Origin: Thermoanaerobacter ethanolicus JW 200
GTDB lineage: Bacteria; Bacillota; Thermoanaerobacteria; Thermoanaerobacterales; Thermoanaerobacteraceae
DNA length: 64,000 bases
Direction of reading: 5' to 3'
NCBI RefSeq assembly: GCF_003722315.1
Contig: NZ_CP033580.1
Location: forward strand, 2,570,501 to 2,634,500
The position numbers and the translations under genes are program-made. The number at the start of each line of letters is the position of its first letter. Position 1 is the stretch's first letter. The notes below the pieces were generated by a model that saw nothing but the letters and a program-made list of their open reading frames with translations, was not told the DNA's origin and made no database searches. Positions 8,825 through 57,176 of the stretch are shown in pieces.

Positions 8825-9211
8825 AAGTCCGCTGTGGGCTTGGTAGTGGGAACCACTAGCCAAGAGCAAGGGTGTCCATCGTGAGGTGGAATCTGAAGGA
8901 AGCTTAAGGCAAAATCTCGGTCTGATGAACAAGAACCAGATAAGAGGCTGAATTGGGGTGGATGAGTTTGCGTAACAAAACGAAGTCCAACACTACCCGA
9001 ATCCCATACAGTAAATCTGGCAGATATATGAGATGAAAGTTATCGTTCTTACCCGGGGAGGTCTCAAGGATAAGTCATGGAAGTAAAATCTGAAGTGACA
9101 ACCCATGCAGTGATGTATGGCTGAACCTTGAGAAGTCAGCAGAGGTCATAGTACTTATCTAGACATGAATAGATAAGGAAGGACCGAACGTTAGGAGGTT
9201 TTGGAAATCTT

Positions 9212-10624
9212 ATGGACTCGAAAGATATGCAGAGACTGCAGACAACTCAACAAAGAGGCTATCCGTTGAATAGAGAAATGGAATTTCAAAAGACAACGGA
9301 AGTGCATAGTATATCATCGGCGTCGGAAGATGGAAGAAACGAAGTACAAAGATATACCAGCAAGATGCTTGAAATGATAGTAGAACGAAGGAACATGGAA
9401 GCAGCATACAAGCGCGTTGTTGCAAATAAAGGAAGCCATGGAGTCGATGGGATGGAAGTAGATGAACTTCTACCGTATCTCAAAGAAAACTGGGCAACCA
9501 TAAAACAACAACTGCTGGAGGGGAAATACAAACCACAACCAGTGCGAAGAGTAGAAATTCCCAAACCAGATGGAGGAGTAAGACTACTAGGAATACCTAC
9601 AGTACTAGACAGACTAATACAACAAGCAATAGCCCAAATACTAAATAAAGTCTACAACCATACATTTTCAGATAGCAGTTATGGATTCAGACCAGGACGC
9701 AGTGCAAAAGACGCAATAAAAGCCGCAGAAGCATACATAAATGAAGGATACACGTGGGTTGTAGATATGGACTTAGAAAAGTTCTTTGACAGAGTAAACC
9801 ACGACATAATAATGTCCAAACTAGAAAAGCGGATAGGAGATAAAAGGGTACTAAAGTTAATACGAAGATACCTAGAATCAGGAGTAATGATAAACGGAAT
9901 CAAAGTATCAACAGAAGAAGGGACACCCCAAGGAGGGCCATTAAGTCCCCTATTAGCAAACATAATGTTGGACGAACTAGACAAAGAACTTGAGAAACGA
10001 GGGCATAAATTCTGCCGATATGCAGATGACTGCAACATATATGTAAAAAGCAGGTCTGCAGGAAACAGAGTAATGAAGAGCATAAAGAAGTTCATAGAAA
10101 GCAAATTAAAACTAAAAGTCAACGAAGCAAAAAGTGCTGTAGATAGACCATGGAGAAGAAAATTTCTTGGATTTTCATTCTATACAAAAGAAAACGAAGT
10201 AAGAATAAGAATCCATGAAAAATCCATCAAAAGGTTTAAGGAAAAAGTAAGAGAAATAACCAATCGGAACAAGGGAATAAGCATGGAAAACAGAATAAAA
10301 AGACTAAATCAAATAACAACAGGATGGGTCAACTATTTTGGATTAGCAGACGCGAAAAGCATAATGAAAACCCTTGACGAATGGATAAGGCGAAGACTAA
10401 GGGCATGTATATGGAAACAATGGAAGAAGATAAAAACGAAGCATGATAACTTAGTAAAACTAGGAGTAGAAGAACAAAAAGCCTGGGAATACGCCAATAC
10501 AAGGAAAGGCTACTGGAGAATATCCAATAGCCCAATCCTAAATAAGACTCTTACAAATAAATACTTTGAAAGCATAGGTTATAAGAGTTTATCCCAAAGA
10601 TATCTAATTGTACACAATTCCTAA
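9212..10624 (+). CDS. Group IIC intron reverse transcriptase/maturase, copy 1
   Basis: The 470-residue intron-encoded protein copies intron RNA into DNA and helps it splice. RT motifs run from about residue 60. They include VDMDLEKFFDRVNHD (residue 184 on), GTPQGGPLSPLLANI (about 237) and the active-site box YADD at 270-273. After residue 330 comes the X/maturase domain (RIKRLNQITTGWVNYFGLAD). No C-terminal HNH endonuclease is present, as usual for class C. A TTAGGAGG site lies about 12 bases before the ATG. The TAA stop sits directly before domain V. The protein appears identical to copy 2. Confidence 0.95.
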   Translation: MDSKDMQRLQTTQQRGYPLNREMEFQKTTEVHSISSASEDGRNEVQRYTSKMLEMIVERRNMEAAYKRVVANKGSHGVDGMEVDELLPYLKENWATIKQQLLEGKYKPQPVRRVEIPKPDGGVRLLGIPTVLDRLIQQAIAQILNKVYNHTFSDSSYGFRPGRSAKDAIKAAEAYINEGYTWVVDMDLEKFFDRVNHDIIMSKLEKRIGDKRVLKLIRRYLESGVMINGIKVSTEEGTPQGGPLSPLLANIMLDELDKELEKRGHKFCRYADDCNIYVKSRSAGNRVMKSIKKFIESKLKLKVNEAKSAVDRPWRRKFLGFSFYTKENEVRIRIHEKSIKRFKEKVREITNRNKGISMENRIKRLNQITTGWVNYFGLADAKSIMKTLDEWIRRRLRACIWKQWKKIKTKHDNLVKLGVEEQKAWEYANTRKGYWRISNSPILNKTLTNKYFESIGYKSLSQRYLIVHNS

Positions 10625-10625
10625 T

Positions 10626-10703
10626 GAACCGCCGTATACCGAACGGTACGTACGGTGGTGTGAGAGGACGCTGAATAAAATAATTATTCAGCTCCTACTC
10701 GAT
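10626..10703 (+). ncRNA. Group II intron domains V and VI, copy 1
   Basis: Domain V folds from AACCGCCGTA and TACGGTGGTG around the ACCGAACGGT loop region (about 10626-10660). Domain VI pairs GCTGAATAA with TTATTCAGC (about 10671-10692) and ends CTCCTACTCGAT. This is the catalytic core and branch-point helix. The antisense strand of domain VI also encodes the last residues and stop codon of HisIE. Confidence 0.85.
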
Positions 10704-20860: not shown

Positions 20861-20983
20861 GTGATTGATGAATACTTTTATGAAGCAAAGCCTGTAAAAC
20901 TTACGAAGCCCCAGTTTTTGAATATAAAGATGAATAAAAGGGAGAGTTTAATAAAGACAAACGGTAAAATGTCAAGGGGGTAA
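20861..20983 (+). CDS. Possible 40-residue ORF behind promoter-like repeat B
   Basis: A GTG-started frame of 40 codons (beginning VIDEYFYEAKPVKLTKPQFL) lies 13 bases behind the -10-like box of repeat B. The GGAG ribosome site overlaps the GTG, so initiation would be poor. I do not recognise the product. It could be a gene remnant left next to the IS110-type element, or chance. Confidence 0.2.
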   Translation: MIDEYFYEAKPVKLTKPQFLNIKMNKRESLIKTNGKMSRG

Positions 20984-21108
20984 TTAAAAAATTTTTGAGA
21001 CATTTGGAGGTCAAAAAAGACAAAAAGATATCCTTCTTCCAATATACTAATAAATGGTATTGGGAGTTCCAGAACAAAATTCCTTATTAATTTTTAACAA
21101 AAAAGTAT

Positions 21109-22350
21109 TTAAATACTAGCAACACCTCTTTCTTGATATATTTGACCTTTGCTGAGCATTGCAAAGATCAGAGGGATTAATCTTCTAGCAGTTAAGACGA
21201 GGGCACGTTTATGTTGGTGTTTAGGTACCTCGCGATACTTCTTGTTGTAGTACTCTTTAAATCTCACTGTGTGCACCCTAACACAGTTAGCGGCTTCAAC
21301 AAGATAGTATCGCAGGTACTGATCACCACACTTAACTAAAGAAGTATCCTGGGCATTGAAATTACCAGACTGATATTTATTCCAGATGAGGCCGGCATAC
21401 TTGGCAACAGCAGCTTCATTATTAAACCTTTTAATATCTCCAATTTCGGCGATGATACCAGCAGCAAGGACGTCCCCAATACCGGGGATACTAGTTAAAG
21501 TTTGAGAAAAAGCTTTAAGCTGTCTTGATATCTCGCCATCAAGCTTTTTAAGTTGAGATTCGAGGAAGCGAATATTTTCGAGTGTCATAGAAAGAGCTAA
21601 GTCGTTTGCTTCAGCAAGATCATGATGAAGCCTGTAAGCTCTGTTAGCAGCAGCTTTTAAAGTTTTGGCGATTTGAGTAGGATCTGAGAGTCTGTTATTG
21701 CCGTTTTTCACAATAAAGTCGATGAGGTCATCAAGAGGCATGGAAGCAATATCATCAGGTGTAAAATTTTCAATAATAGCTAAGGAAGCCTTACCGAATA
21801 TATTACTAAAAGGGCACTCTGAGGGATAGGTTGAGAACTTGAAGGAAATAAGGTTTAGGGCGCGATTTTTTTCACGGACCAGGCTACGAACAATATGATA
21901 ACGCATGCGAGTGAGTTTTTGTAGTGCAGCGTATCTCAAGTCTGGGAGAGGAGTTGGTTTGACCTGTCCAAATCTTACACATTCAGCAATAACAGCTGCA
22001 TCAATGGAGTCTGTTTTAGGAAGATGGATATAAGCGCCTTTAAAAGATTTAATAATAGAAAGATTGATGACGTAAAATAGAGGATTAAAGGGAGCAAGTT
22101 CAGGAGAAGAAGCTAGGAAAGTATGCAAATGCCAAGCATAGTGTGAAGTAGCTTCCATGCCAAATTTGATAGATGAAATATTGTATTGTTGAGCAAGAGA
22201 GATAGTAAAGTTTAGAAACTGCTGAGCGCCATCCAAATCATTAGGGAAGAAGAAAGTTTTTTTCACTAAGCGGTTGCCGGTCTCATCAATAAAAGAAGCA
22301 GCATTTAATTCACTTGAAATATCAATGCCAACGATAAGTGTAGAGCTCAT
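21109..22350 (-). CDS. IS110-family DEDD recombinase/transposase
   Basis: The 413-residue protein has the N-terminal RuvC-like DEDD domain (STLIVGIDISSELNAASFID) and the C-terminal Tnp_20 domain with LTSIPGIGDVLAAGIIAEIG. The serine in YQSGNF is the likely nucleophile. IS110 recombinases use an element-encoded bridge RNA to choose donor and target. The ATG at 22350 has AAAGGAG upstream. The open frame continues 54 codons further up, but that stretch overlaps the structured RNA region and looks noncoding. The gene appears intact. Confidence 0.9.
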   Translation of the reverse strand: MSSTLIVGIDISSELNAASFIDETGNRLVKKTFFFPNDLDGAQQFLNFTISLAQQYNISSIKFGMEATSHYAWHLHTFLASSPELAPFNPLFYVINLSIIKSFKGAYIHLPKTDSIDAAVIAECVRFGQVKPTPLPDLRYAALQKLTRMRYHIVRSLVREKNRALNLISFKFSTYPSECPFSNIFGKASLAIIENFTPDDIASMPLDDLIDFIVKNGNNRLSDPTQIAKTLKAAANRAYRLHHDLAEANDLALSMTLENIRFLESQLKKLDGEISRQLKAFSQTLTSIPGIGDVLAAGIIAEIGDIKRFNNEAAVAKYAGLIWNKYQSGNFNAQDTSLVKCGDQYLRYYLVEAANCVRVHTVRFKEYYNKKYREVPKHQHKRALVLTARRLIPLIFAMLSKGQIYQERGVASI

Positions 22351-22389
22351 GGATAAATTCACGCTCCTTTTTGTAAAAAGTTTTTTAAA

Positions 22390-22661
22390 GGTCCTTTGTC
22401 TCTTAAGTTTTTGTAATACACCCTCGCCGTGGGAAGTAGCCAGATTTAGCTTATAGGGTGCCTGACCATCGATGCTCAAGCGATGGACAGATAAGCTAAA
22501 GAGGCACAACAAACGAGTATGTATTACTCAATAACTCCAGAGGTTCAGTCTTATTCGAGTGGTGATGCTGATTTACCAGCATGCCACAGGAGTAAGCCAA
22601 AAATACCTCAGTAAACTTAAAAGGGACCTTCCACTTTTAAGTTTATCAGAGACAAAGGACC
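22390..22661 (-). ncRNA. Candidate IS110 bridge RNA
   Basis: The noncoding region upstream of the recombinase is strongly structured. A perfect 14-bp inverted repeat closes it (AGAGACAAAGGACC at 22648-22661 against 22390-22403). Inside are three hairpins. One has a perfect 12-bp stem (22612-22645). One is GTGG..ATGCTG / CAGCAT..CCAC with an asymmetric internal loop (22559-22587). One has TTTAGCTTAT / ATAAGCTAAA enclosing CTG-t-CCATCG / CGATGG-t-CAG (22445-22500). Position and fold fit the bridge RNA of IS110-group elements, which lies in the end upstream of the recombinase. Guide loops were not assigned. Confidence 0.55.
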
Positions 22662-22798
22662 ATTTAAATAAAAAAATGAGAGATTTAATTATGAGATTGT
22701 TTTACCAGGGTAAAAATGGTTTTTAAGGATTTAATTTATGTGTTTATTATTAAATTTTTGATGTGAATTACAATCATATTATACGAGAGGTGTTTTTT

Positions 22799-23146
22799 AT
22801 GATAGAAGCCACTGAATTATTAAAGTATTCCTTAGAAGATGAGCTAAAGAGAATAACGAATATTATTATTGAAAAGTGCAATCCAGAGAGGATAATACTT
22901 TTCGGGTCAATGGCTAATGGTACTGCTAAGGAATGGAGCGATATTGACTTAGTCGTGATAATGGATACGGATTTAAGATTTGCTGATAGAACTTTATATT
23001 TAATGAGGCTTACCCATCCTAGAGTAGGAGTTGATTTTTTAGTATATACACCAGAAGAAGAAGAGTTGTTTAAGAAGAATAGAGACCTATTTTATACCGA
23101 AGAGGTACTCAAGAAGGGGGTCATATTGTATGACAGAAGTTCATAA
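22799..23146 (+). CDS. MNT-type nucleotidyltransferase, partner of HEPN protein
   Basis: The 115-residue protein is a minimal nucleotidyltransferase. The signature ILFGSMANGTAKEWSDIDLVV supplies GSxxxG and the DxD metal ligands, and GVDFLVY supplies a third Asp. Family members linked to HEPN proteins act as antitoxins, in some cases by AMPylating the partner, or transfer nucleotides to unknown targets. I use the ATG at 22799 (site GAGAGGTG). The upstream frame lacks a site. It overlaps the HEPN gene by 17 bases, so the two are translationally coupled. Confidence 0.85.
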   Translation: MIEATELLKYSLEDELKRITNIIIEKCNPERIILFGSMANGTAKEWSDIDLVVIMDTDLRFADRTLYLMRLTHPRVGVDFLVYTPEEEELFKKNRDLFYTEEVLKKGVILYDRSS

Positions 23147-23543
23147 ATATAGTCAGTGGTTAGATTATGCTAATGACGATTTGAAGGCAGCAAAAGAACT
23201 GTTAAAAACTGATTTGCATAATATTGTTTGTTTCCATTCGCAGCAAGCTGTAGAAAAAGCTTTAAAAGCCTATTTGGTTTTTAATAATATAAATCCTCCT
23301 AAAGTACACAATTTGATCACTTTGTTAGAATTGTGTATAAACTTGGACAAAGAATTTGAAATTTTGAGAGATGATATGGAATTTTTAGACTCCTATTATA
23401 TTCCAACAAGATATCCAAGTGCTCCTATTGGCTATTTACCTGGTGGCAAACCTAATAAAGATAATGCTACCAAGGCATTTGAAAAAGCTGAAAATTCTGT
23501 GAAATATATAATTAAACTTGTAGAAGATAAGAAAAAAGAATAA
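23130..23543 (+). CDS. HEPN-domain protein
   Basis: The 137-residue protein has the PF05168-type HEPN core: a four-helix bundle with VCFHSQQAVEKALKAYLVF followed by PPKVHNLITLLEL. It overlaps the MNT nucleotidyltransferase gene and forms the common HEPN-MNT pair. I do not see the R-x4-6-H motif that marks HEPN ribonucleases, so it may be a nucleotidyltransferase-binding protein rather than a toxin. Toxin-antitoxin function is not shown by the sequence. Confidence 0.8.
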   Translation: MTEVHKYSQWLDYANDDLKAAKELLKTDLHNIVCFHSQQAVEKALKAYLVFNNINPPKVHNLITLLELCINLDKEFEILRDDMEFLDSYYIPTRYPSAPIGYLPGGKPNKDNATKAFEKAENSVKYIIKLVEDKKKE

Positions 23544-51004: not shown

Positions 51005-52916
51005 ATCGAGTAGGAGCTGAATAATTATTTTATTCAGCGTCCTCTCACACCACCGTACGTACCGTTCGGTATACGGCGGTTCATTAGGAATTGTGTACAA
51101 TTAGATATCTTTGGGATAAACTCTTATAACCTATGCTTTCAAAGTATTTATTTGTAAGAGTCTTATTTAGGATTGGGCTATTGGATATTCTCCAGTAGCC
51201 TTTCCTTGTATTGGCGTATTCCCAGGCTTTTTGTTCTTCTACTCCTAGTTTTACTAAGTTATCATGCTTCGTTTTTATCTTCTTCCATTGTTTCCATATA
51301 CATGCCCTTAGTCTTCGCCTTATCCATTCGTCAAGGGTTTTCATTATGCTTTTCGCGTCTGCTAATCCAAAATAGTTGACCCATCCTGTTGTTATTTGAT
51401 TTAGTCTTTTTATTCTGTTTTCCATGCTTATTCCCTTGTTCCGATTGGTTATTTCTCTTACTTTTTCCTTAAACCTTTTGATGGATTTTTCATGGATTCT
51501 TATTCTTACTTCGTTTTCTTTTGTATAGAATGAAAATCCAAGAAATTTTCTTCTCCATGGTCTATCTACAGCACTTTTTGCTTCGTTGACTTTTAGTTTT
51601 AATTTGCTTTCTATGAACTTCTTTATGCTCTTCATTACTCTGTTTCCTGCAGACCTGCTTTTTACATATATGTTGCAGTCATCTGCATATCGGCAGAATT
51701 TATGCCCTCGTTTCTCAAGTTCTTTGTCTAGTTCGTCCAACATTATGTTTGCTAATAGGGGACTTAATGGCCCTCCTTGGGGTGTCCCTTCTTCTGTTGA
51801 TACTTTGATTCCGTTTATCATTACTCCTGATTCTAGGTATCTTCGTATTAACTTTAGTACCCTTTTATCTCCTATCCGCTTTTCTAGTTTGGACATTATT
51901 ATGTCGTGGTTTACTCTGTCAAAGAACTTTTCTAAGTCCATATCTACAACCCACGTGTATCCTTCATTTATGTATGCTTCTGCGGCTTTTATTGCGTCTT
52001 TTGCACTGCGTCCTGGTCTGAATCCATAACTGCTATCTGAAAATGTATGGTTGTAGACTTTATTTAGTATTTGGGCTATTGCTTGTTGTATTAGTCTGTC
52101 TAGTACTGTAGGTATTCCTAGTAGTCTTACTCCTCCATCTGGTTTGGGAATTTCTACTCTTCGCACTGGTTGTGGTTTGTATTTCCCCTCCAGCAGTTGT
52201 TGTTTTATGGTTGCCCAGTTTTCTTTGAGATACGGTAGAAGTTCATCTACTTCCATCCCATCGACTCCATGGCTTCCTTTATTTGCAACAACGCGCTTGT
52301 ATGCTGCTTCCATGTTCCTTCGTTCTACTATCATTTCAAGCATCTTGCTGGTATATCTTTGTACTTCGTTTCTTCCATCTTCCGACGCCGATGATATACT
52401 ATGCACTTCCGTTGTCTTTTGAAATTCCATTTCTCTATTCAACGGATAGCCTCTTTGTTGAGTTGTCTGCAGTCTCTGCATATCTTTCGAGTCCATAAGA
52501 TTTCCAAAACCTCCTAACGTTCGGTCCTTCCTTATCTATTCATGTCTAGATAAGTACTATGACCTCTGCTGACTTCTCAAGGTTCAGCCATACATCACTG
52601 CATGGGTTCTCACTTCAGATTTTACTTCCATGACTTATCCTTGAGACCTCCCCGGGTAAGAACGATAACTTTCATCTCATATATCTGCCAGATTTACTGT
52701 ATGGGATTCGGGTAGTGTTGGACTTCGTTTTGTTACGCAAACTCATCCATCCCAATTCAGCCTCTTATCTGGTTCTTGTTCATCAGACCGAGATTTTGCC
52801 TTAAGCTTCCTTCAGATTCCACCTCACGATGGACACCCTTGCTTTTGGCTAGTGGTTCCCACTACCAAGCCCACAGCGGACTTTCACCGCCTAGCTATCG
52901 CCCATGCCGGGCGCAC
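51005..52916 (-). mobile_element. Group IIC intron, copy 2, complete
   Basis: The 1912-bp intron is the same as the copy at 8792-10703, but in the opposite orientation. Its 5' end (52916) lies directly behind the T-run of the metX terminator, and its 3' end (51005) ends CTCCTACTCGAT. I see three base differences between copies, all in the 5' RNA part: 52844, 52750 and 52609 (matching 8864, 8958 and 9099). Such similarity implies recent mobility. The insertion separates the metX terminator from the Gfo/Idh gene downstream. Confidence 0.92.
51084..52496 (-). CDS. Group IIC intron reverse transcriptase/maturase, copy 2
   Basis: The 470-residue protein appears identical to that of copy 1 (YADD at residues 270-273, X/maturase domain in the last third, no HNH endonuclease). 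An intact frame suggests the copy can still move. The stop codon precedes domain V by a few bases. The ATG at 52496 follows TTAGGAGG at the same spacing as in copy 1. Confidence 0.95.
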   Translation of the reverse strand: MDSKDMQRLQTTQQRGYPLNREMEFQKTTEVHSISSASEDGRNEVQRYTSKMLEMIVERRNMEAAYKRVVANKGSHGVDGMEVDELLPYLKENWATIKQQLLEGKYKPQPVRRVEIPKPDGGVRLLGIPTVLDRLIQQAIAQILNKVYNHTFSDSSYGFRPGRSAKDAIKAAEAYINEGYTWVVDMDLEKFFDRVNHDIIMSKLEKRIGDKRVLKLIRRYLESGVMINGIKVSTEEGTPQGGPLSPLLANIMLDELDKELEKRGHKFCRYADDCNIYVKSRSAGNRVMKSIKKFIESKLKLKVNEAKSAVDRPWRRKFLGFSFYTKENEVRIRIHEKSIKRFKEKVREITNRNKGISMENRIKRLNQITTGWVNYFGLADAKSIMKTLDEWIRRRLRACIWKQWKKIKTKHDNLVKLGVEEQKAWEYANTRKGYWRISNSPILNKTLTNKYFESIGYKSLSQRYLIVHNS

Positions 52917-56742: not shown

Positions 56743-56855
56743 CCTCTCATCTCTCAGGTTAGACACCCTAACCTGCAGGATTTGGCACCAGACGCATATA
56801 AATGCCGGTTGCCGGGTTTCATCGGGCCAGTCCCTCCACCACTCTTGATAAGAGG
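56743..56855 (-). promoter_or_regulatory. SAM-I riboswitch (S-box) of hom-metY-metX
   Basis: Read on the minus strand, the S-box consensus is nearly complete: CTTATCAAGAGTGGTGGAGG, CCCGATGAAACCCGGCAACC, GGTGCCAAATCCTGCAGG and CCTGAGAGATGAG. Helix P1 forms from CCTCTTATC and GATGAGAGG. Binding of S-adenosylmethionine should favour the terminator and switch the operon off. Confidence 0.93.
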
Positions 56856-56922: not shown

Positions 56923-57042
56923 GAACTTTTTTTGTACTCTTTCTTAAATTTTTTCTAAATTTTAATATACGCCGATTTTTTTTAGTGGTATAATAATATT
57001 GTATAATATTTATACTCTATCGATTATAAAAATTTAATATTT

Positions 57043-57135
57043 GCCACATGGGGTGCCGGCGTAACCGGCTGAGAAAAAGGTGTTGCCTTTTAACCCATCG
57101 AACCTGTTAGGTTAGTACCTGCGTAGGGATGTGGT
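57043..57135 (+). promoter_or_regulatory. TPP riboswitch (THI box) of thiC
   Basis: The THI-box consensus is clear: GGGGTGCC, GGCTGAGA, ACCC-x3-GAACCTG, and TTAGTACCTGCGTAGGGA. The closing helix pairs GCCACAT (57043 on) with ATGTGGT. Thiamin pyrophosphate should bind here and repress thiC. Confidence 0.94.
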
Positions 57136-57141
57136 CATCTG

Positions 57142-57176
57142 CCATGGCTATAATCCCCATGGTTTATTTATTTTTT
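57142..57176 (+). terminator. Regulatory terminator of the TPP riboswitch
   Basis: CCATGG (57142-57147) pairs with CCATGG (57157-57162) around a nine-base loop, and TTTATTTATTTTTT follows directly. It ends just before the AAGGAGG ribosome site of thiC, so it can cut off expression before the start codon. Confidence 0.7.

Follow-up and report, generated by a model that had tools for sequence, protein, structure and literature searches.

Results

An IS110-group element with a long noncoding left end

We analyzed a stretch of 64,000 nucleotides from Thermoanaerobacter ethanolicus JW 200 (contig NZ_CP033580.1), here called the window. It harbors, on its minus strand, an insertion sequence of the IS110 group, 1829 bp in length (20957..22785), which is the only full copy in this genome; the features of the element given below lie on the same strand. 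The right end (RE, about 150 bp) is on the low-coordinate side. On the high-coordinate side is the left end (LE, 22351..22785), which consists of 435 bp of noncoding sequence up to the ATG of the recombinase gene (21109..22350). A preliminary description of the window had proposed that positions 22390 to 22661 of this noncoding end are a candidate bridge RNA, and this region is the subject of our study.

The recombinase (413 amino acids) has an intact reading frame. It matches the Pfam families DEDD_Tnp_IS110 (2.6e-27) and Transposase_20 (1.9e-23) and the NCBIfam model for IS110 family RNA-guided transposases (1.8e-74), all above cut-off, and shows a remote sequence match to IS621 and ISCro4. 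The catalytic residues D10, E66, D114, D117, and S328, placed by comparison with D11, E60, D102, D105, and S241 of IS621 (PMC11208158), are all present. The DEDD domain, the C-terminal Tnp domain, and the catalytic serine, together with a long LE, a short RE, an RNA upstream of the gene, and a CT core, are those of the IS110 group. IS1111 elements carry their RNA in a long RE and have long sub-terminal inverted repeats; here the RE is short and the RNA lies within the LE. Structure found only downstream of the recombinase, which the preliminary description had regarded as speaking against its proposal, is thus not what this element has.

The ends and the core dinucleotide, which the preliminary description had left to be fixed from other copies, could be determined from empty sites. 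When the flanks of the window copy are joined (20954 to 22788 via AG), they are 94.5-97.7% identical to the uninterrupted site in six genomes of the same genus, and the same ends are common to copies at other sites. The element therefore occupies 20957-22785, with the core CT (AG on the plus strand) at both ends, the left core at 22786..22787 and the right core at 20955..20956. We count the T of the TCT beside the right core as part of the element, since right ends always have this T, and the base preceding the left core is variable. No long terminal inverted repeats were seen when the end sequences were inspected by eye.

The LE terminus carries a -10 box (TATAAT, 22778..22783) and the RE terminus a -35 box (TTGACA, 20970..20975). 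At the RE-LE junction of a circular form these would be arranged as TTGACA-17-TATAAT, a predicted sigma-70 promoter that is formed only when the ends are joined. Inspection of the LE by eye gave no convincing -35 box for an outward promoter serving the downstream gene, and none is claimed.

A closed RNA structure conserved among homologues

The core of the predicted RNA (22390..22661) runs from one arm of a closing stem to the other. The 5' arm (GGTCCTTTGTCTCT, 22648..22661) and the 3' arm (AGAGACAAAGGACC, 22390..22403) are exact 14-bp complements, as had been described before. Three hairpins lie inside this stem, at the positions where they had been noted: a 5' hairpin (22612..22645), a target-binding hairpin (approximately 22540-22609), and a donor-binding hairpin (approximately 22405-22537). 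The 272-nt sense strand folds with -106.1 kcal/mol, compared to -65.3 +/- 4.3 for 200 dinucleotide shuffles (z = -9.6), and none of the 200 folded as well. The antisense strand folds equally well, as is expected for inverted repeats, and we therefore relied on the recombinase gene, the promoter at the junction, and the guides to assign the strand. The region matched no Rfam family, whether searched at gathering thresholds or at relaxed ones.

Comparison with homologues supports this fold. In an alignment of 17 sequences, RNAalifold retained 61 pairs, 19 of them with double-sided changes. A fuller structure of 90 pairs has such changes in 25, which is the kind of covariance that the preliminary description had proposed to look for. 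In the latter structure 93.7% of cells are paired, against 34-45% when the partners are slid by 1-3 columns, a comparison biased in its favor in that the structure was built from the alignment on which it was scored. Double-changed cells number 106, against 33 in shuffles, and many of these double-sided changes distinguish just two lineages. Of the two lines of structural evidence, the compensatory changes are nevertheless stronger than the slid-column comparison. They include 4 of 15 pairs of the closing stem, whose arms change together (GGTCCTTTGTCTCT/AGAGACAAAGGACC here, GCCCTTTATCTCTGG/CCAGGGATAAAGGGC in class-level relatives), and the apical stem of the target-binding hairpin (GUGG...CCAC here; GCUG...CAGC, GAAG...CUUC, and GUAG...CUAC in homologues). 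The RNA thus has the two internal loops and the conserved folding expected of a bridge RNA.

The guides themselves are not where they were first sought. The loops at 22559-22587 and 22445-22500 had been put forward as guide loops; these are apical stem-loops between the guides (22559..22587 in the target-binding hairpin and 22459..22506 in the donor-binding hairpin). The guides are the flanking strands, at 22588-22596 and 22549-22556 for the target and at 22507-22516 and 22422-22428 for the donor.

Donor guides

The left donor guide (UCGUUUGUUG, 22507..22516) matches the RE end (CCGTTTGTC), and in the window copy this match is intact. RE-end hexamers differ by lineage (CGTTTG, CGCTTG, CGTATG, CGTGAG, CGTAGG, CGTAAG, CGAAGG, CGCAGG, CGAAAT, CACAAG, and two more). 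For 10 of the 12 distinct donor hexamers, the element's own RNA carries a match at the homologous place, compared to 9.3% for hexamers of other lineages (permutation p of about 1e-5). By this comparison, left donor guide and RE co-vary as is expected of the pairing. The putative right donor guide (GGCGAGG, 22422..22428) would pair with CTCG of the core and LE. It is invariant in alignment A1, and the LE start (CGTATAAT) is conserved among relatives, so that no co-variation test is available for this guide.

Target guides

The left target guide of the window copy (CUUACUCCU, 22588..22596) occupies the position at which homologues carry guides co-varying with their left targets. The right target guide (22549..22556), which also co-varies with its target, is GAAUAAGA in the window copy and AAAGA in most relatives. 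We tested 15 guide groups against 80 sites; 28 of these sites come from two fragmented assemblies, G003 and G020, and were assigned the guide of another copy in the same genome. Left guides match their own targets at 3.99 of 6 non-core positions, compared to 3.08 with permuted guides (p = 5e-5), and right guides fit their own right targets with p = 6e-4 weighted by site or 3e-3 weighted by group; the groups share descent, so these permutation values are inexact. Setting the loops against the target flanks, as the preliminary description had suggested, thus yields co-variation over 15 guide groups, in addition to that of the donor over 12 sequences. The pairing of target guides with the insertion site holds for the family, and the window copy fits in part.

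Genome G033 provides the clearest example, a natural reprogramming of guides within one genome. Nine sites with the guides CACCUCCU/AAAGA have ACCTCCT-like left targets, with TCTT as the right target in eight, and four sites with the guides CACCCCCU/GAGAGA have CCCCCT-like left targets, all four with TCTCT on the right. Across the Shine-Dalgarno sites in general, the variant of the site follows the guide (CACTCCT sites with a CACUCCU guide, ATCCCCCT with AUCCCCCU, and TCTCT with GAGAGA), and the close relatives L010 and L040 combine CACCUCU guides with CACCTCT targets. A target look-alike at 22497-22509 (GUGCCUCUUUA) was dropped as a candidate guide: homologues have this stretch within the donor hairpin, and it does not track the target.

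Insertion at Shine-Dalgarno sequences

A point beyond the preliminary description is what the target is. DNA searches recovered homologous copies, full or partial, at the levels of genus, family, order, and class, and the loci from the protein search include Thermoanaerobacter wiegelii, Thermoanaerobacterium butyriciformans, and Caloramator australicus. In all, the comparison covered more than a hundred insertions of relatives, and 85 distinct insertion sites were gathered, with the LE located via its terminal motif and not via the flank. Seen from the host gene, the sites consist of AGGAGGT(G) and, downstream of it, a start codon. Of 84 left flanks, 59 contain, 6-22 nt away, a start codon that opens at least 40 codons; the distance is mostly 13-14 nt, and 51 of these start codons are ATG. 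The corresponding count is 3 among 44 right flanks, and the rate at random positions is 13.4%. The insertion point and the orientation are close to constant.

The target guide of the lineage is about CACCUCCU, with AAAGA for the right half. This guide resembles an anti-Shine-Dalgarno sequence, which we take to be like the 3' tail of 16S rRNA. With such a target loop, the element would therefore insert at the ribosome-binding sites of genes. A wider sample of the phylum (recombinases 39-67% identical) shows the same placement at 33 of 42 sites, a set in which a few sites duplicate the first and the LE ends of single copies are set by motif only; directly before the LE these sites read CCTCCT, CACTCCT, or CCCCCT. 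Compared across these sites, the programmed target is the complement of the Shine-Dalgarno sequence, mostly just ahead of a gene. A second IS110 family in the source genome, with three copies (L189-L191, at 250745, 613006, and 1562900) and a recombinase 41% identical, also sits at CCTCCT|CGTATAAT sites.

The window copy and related loci

Next to the LE of the window copy, on the plus strand, are the remainder of a Shine-Dalgarno sequence (AGGTG), a spacer, and the ATG (22788..22801) of a gene for an MNT-domain nucleotidyltransferase (Pfam NTP_transf_2) that is uninterrupted in six relatives. This gene and a HEPN gene form a toxin-antitoxin-like pair (22799-23543, plus strand), and the insertion is within the Shine-Dalgarno sequence of the pair.

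Several remnants and variants of the family were noted. A solo LE of 258 bp in the same genome (L002, 914257-914511) is 88% identical to window positions 22539-22796; this remnant and L046 in genome G005 stand beside a Shine-Dalgarno sequence and start codon, apparently the same site in two genomes. L044 of T. wiegelii has an internal deletion that removed much of the recombinase gene and kept the RE and an LE with the whole bridge RNA (guide CACCUCCU), and it could move in trans or supply guides. L039 is a full element with a recombinase 74% identical, on a contig of a metagenome-assembled genome labeled Candidatus Micrarchaeota, where bacterial contamination is likely. Elsewhere in the window are two group II introns in opposite orientations (8875-10703, plus; 51005-52833, minus) and divergent S-adenosylmethionine (56744-56854, minus) and thiamine pyrophosphate (57039-57146, plus) riboswitches.

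Discussion

Our results make it very probable that the region is an IS110-group bridge RNA with donor and target loops, whose anti-Shine-Dalgarno guide would steer the element into ribosome-binding sites; the earlier proposal of a bridge RNA is borne out by the co-variation of donor guide with RE and of target guide with insertion site. Comparison shows the element ends and core, the promoter sequence at the junction, the fold of the RNA, the pairing of the left donor guide and of the target guides, and the placement at Shine-Dalgarno sequences. For transcription, binding, and catalysis we infer the following course. Excision as a circle would bring the -35 box of the RE and the -10 box of the LE together and lead to transcription of the LE. 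The RNA would fold into a closed three-hairpin molecule and bind the recombinase, with one loop paired to the joined element ends as donor and the second loop to the target. Strand exchange by the recombinase would then take place at the CT core. Insertion occurs in a ribosome-binding site with the LE toward the start codon, leaving behind a Shine-Dalgarno-like AG-GAGGTG that presumably keeps the downstream gene translatable.

Several points weigh against this reading, besides the shared descent of the guide groups. CGAG of the right donor guide matches CTCG of the LE start, but both are invariant. The register of the donor guides at the core is uncertain, with most relatives having CGUUUG-CU without the T of TCT. 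The donor loop of four copies (L015, L018, L019, and L020) does not match their own RE: the loop is CUCGAAGG, the RE is CGTTTG, and the loop would fit the CGAAGG donors of the G186 and G235 elements. This raises the possibility of guide-loop exchange between families. In the window copy, the left target guide (UUACUCCU) and the site (ACACCTCT) have four matches, two wobbles, and two mismatches, and the right guide (GAAUAAGA) is off by one base from the right site (TCTTTATT). With this partial fit, the most plausible view is that the copy belongs to the family and either had its guide drift after insertion or was put in place by the RNA of another copy.

The same mismatches, together with the single full copy in the genome and the solo LE remnant at 914257, would be expected if the copy were a fossil, a bridge RNA by descent that is inactive at this locus. 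This is compatible with the preferred explanation for the family, but we consider it rather unlikely, as the recombinase frame, all catalytic residues, both ends, the promoter boxes, and the match of left donor guide and RE are intact.

Two other explanations concern the family as a whole. The structure immediately precedes the ATG of the recombinase gene, in the same orientation, and would belong to its mRNA, and the transposase of ISPpu9 is reportedly regulated by secondary structure of the mRNA 5' untranslated region; the region could thus be a cis-acting attenuator of recombinase translation instead of a guide RNA. A leader, however, need not match a distant RE or the host flank, and here both match and co-vary. 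This makes an attenuator as the sole role extremely improbable, and a double role is possible. It is also conceivable that harmful insertions elsewhere were lost, so that the targeting is a by-product of selection and the guide-target matches follow from all targets being Shine-Dalgarno sequences. The targets do all resemble each other, and the insertions that survive are a biased set in any genome. Yet within this class the exact variant tracks the guide, and selection alone predicts intergenic spread and not one point and orientation at the Shine-Dalgarno sequence. We regard selection as a highly unlikely explanation, and guided insertion by a bridge RNA is preferred.

The system resembles IS621 (Durrant 2024, PMC11208160; Hiraizumi 2024, PMC11208158) in the location of the RNA, within a long LE that precedes the recombinase gene, in the order of 5' hairpin, target loop, and donor loop, in the pairing of the 5' strand of a loop with the bottom DNA strand and of the 3' strand with the top, and in the CT core, the promoter made by excision, and the DEDD and serine active site. 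It differs in its longer hairpins, in the size of the RNA, which has about 272 nt and a closing stem of 14 bp (177 nt in IS621), in a recombinase of 413 residues (328 in IS621) that is only remotely alike in sequence, and in its Shine-Dalgarno target. With ISEc21 and the IS1111 elements that use seekRNA (Siddiquee 2024, PMC11187229) it shares RNA-guided target choice and natural reprogramming between relatives, although their RNAs lie downstream of the transposase and their targets are different. An IS110 family member of Mycobacterium avium subsp. paratuberculosis, IS900, is on record as inserting at the start signals of translation, with CAT to the left; for it, PMC8141618 cites the insertion motif CATGNNNNNNTCTCCTT and the 1997 paper by Doran titled "IS900 targets translation initiation signals". 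IS900 is mycobacterial, and PMC8141618 offers no guide explanation. A literature search for bridge RNAs or IS110 together with Shine-Dalgarno found no paper linking them; subscription journals and preprints were largely outside this search, and priority is not established.

The layout, core, junction promoter, and pairing rules were thus already known from IS621, and start-site targeting by a relative from IS900. The present comparison adds an explanation of the targeting by a guide, the breadth of such targeting in the phylum, and reprogramming within one genome. We think it likely that a phylum-wide IS110 lineage carries preset anti-Shine-Dalgarno guides with which it finds many gene starts, spares the ribosome-binding sites, and switches between Shine-Dalgarno variants within a genome. 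As programmable tools for recombination, bridge RNAs are new, and the present thermophile family offers a natural series of reprogrammed guides with fixed ends and empty sites. If true, the anti-Shine-Dalgarno logic would explain the old observation on IS900 and give a concrete reason for the insertion of some IS110 elements at translation starts, namely, that guide and ribosome read the same motif. The target problem of a mobile element would be neatly solved in this way, with a short guide, very many sites, and limited damage.
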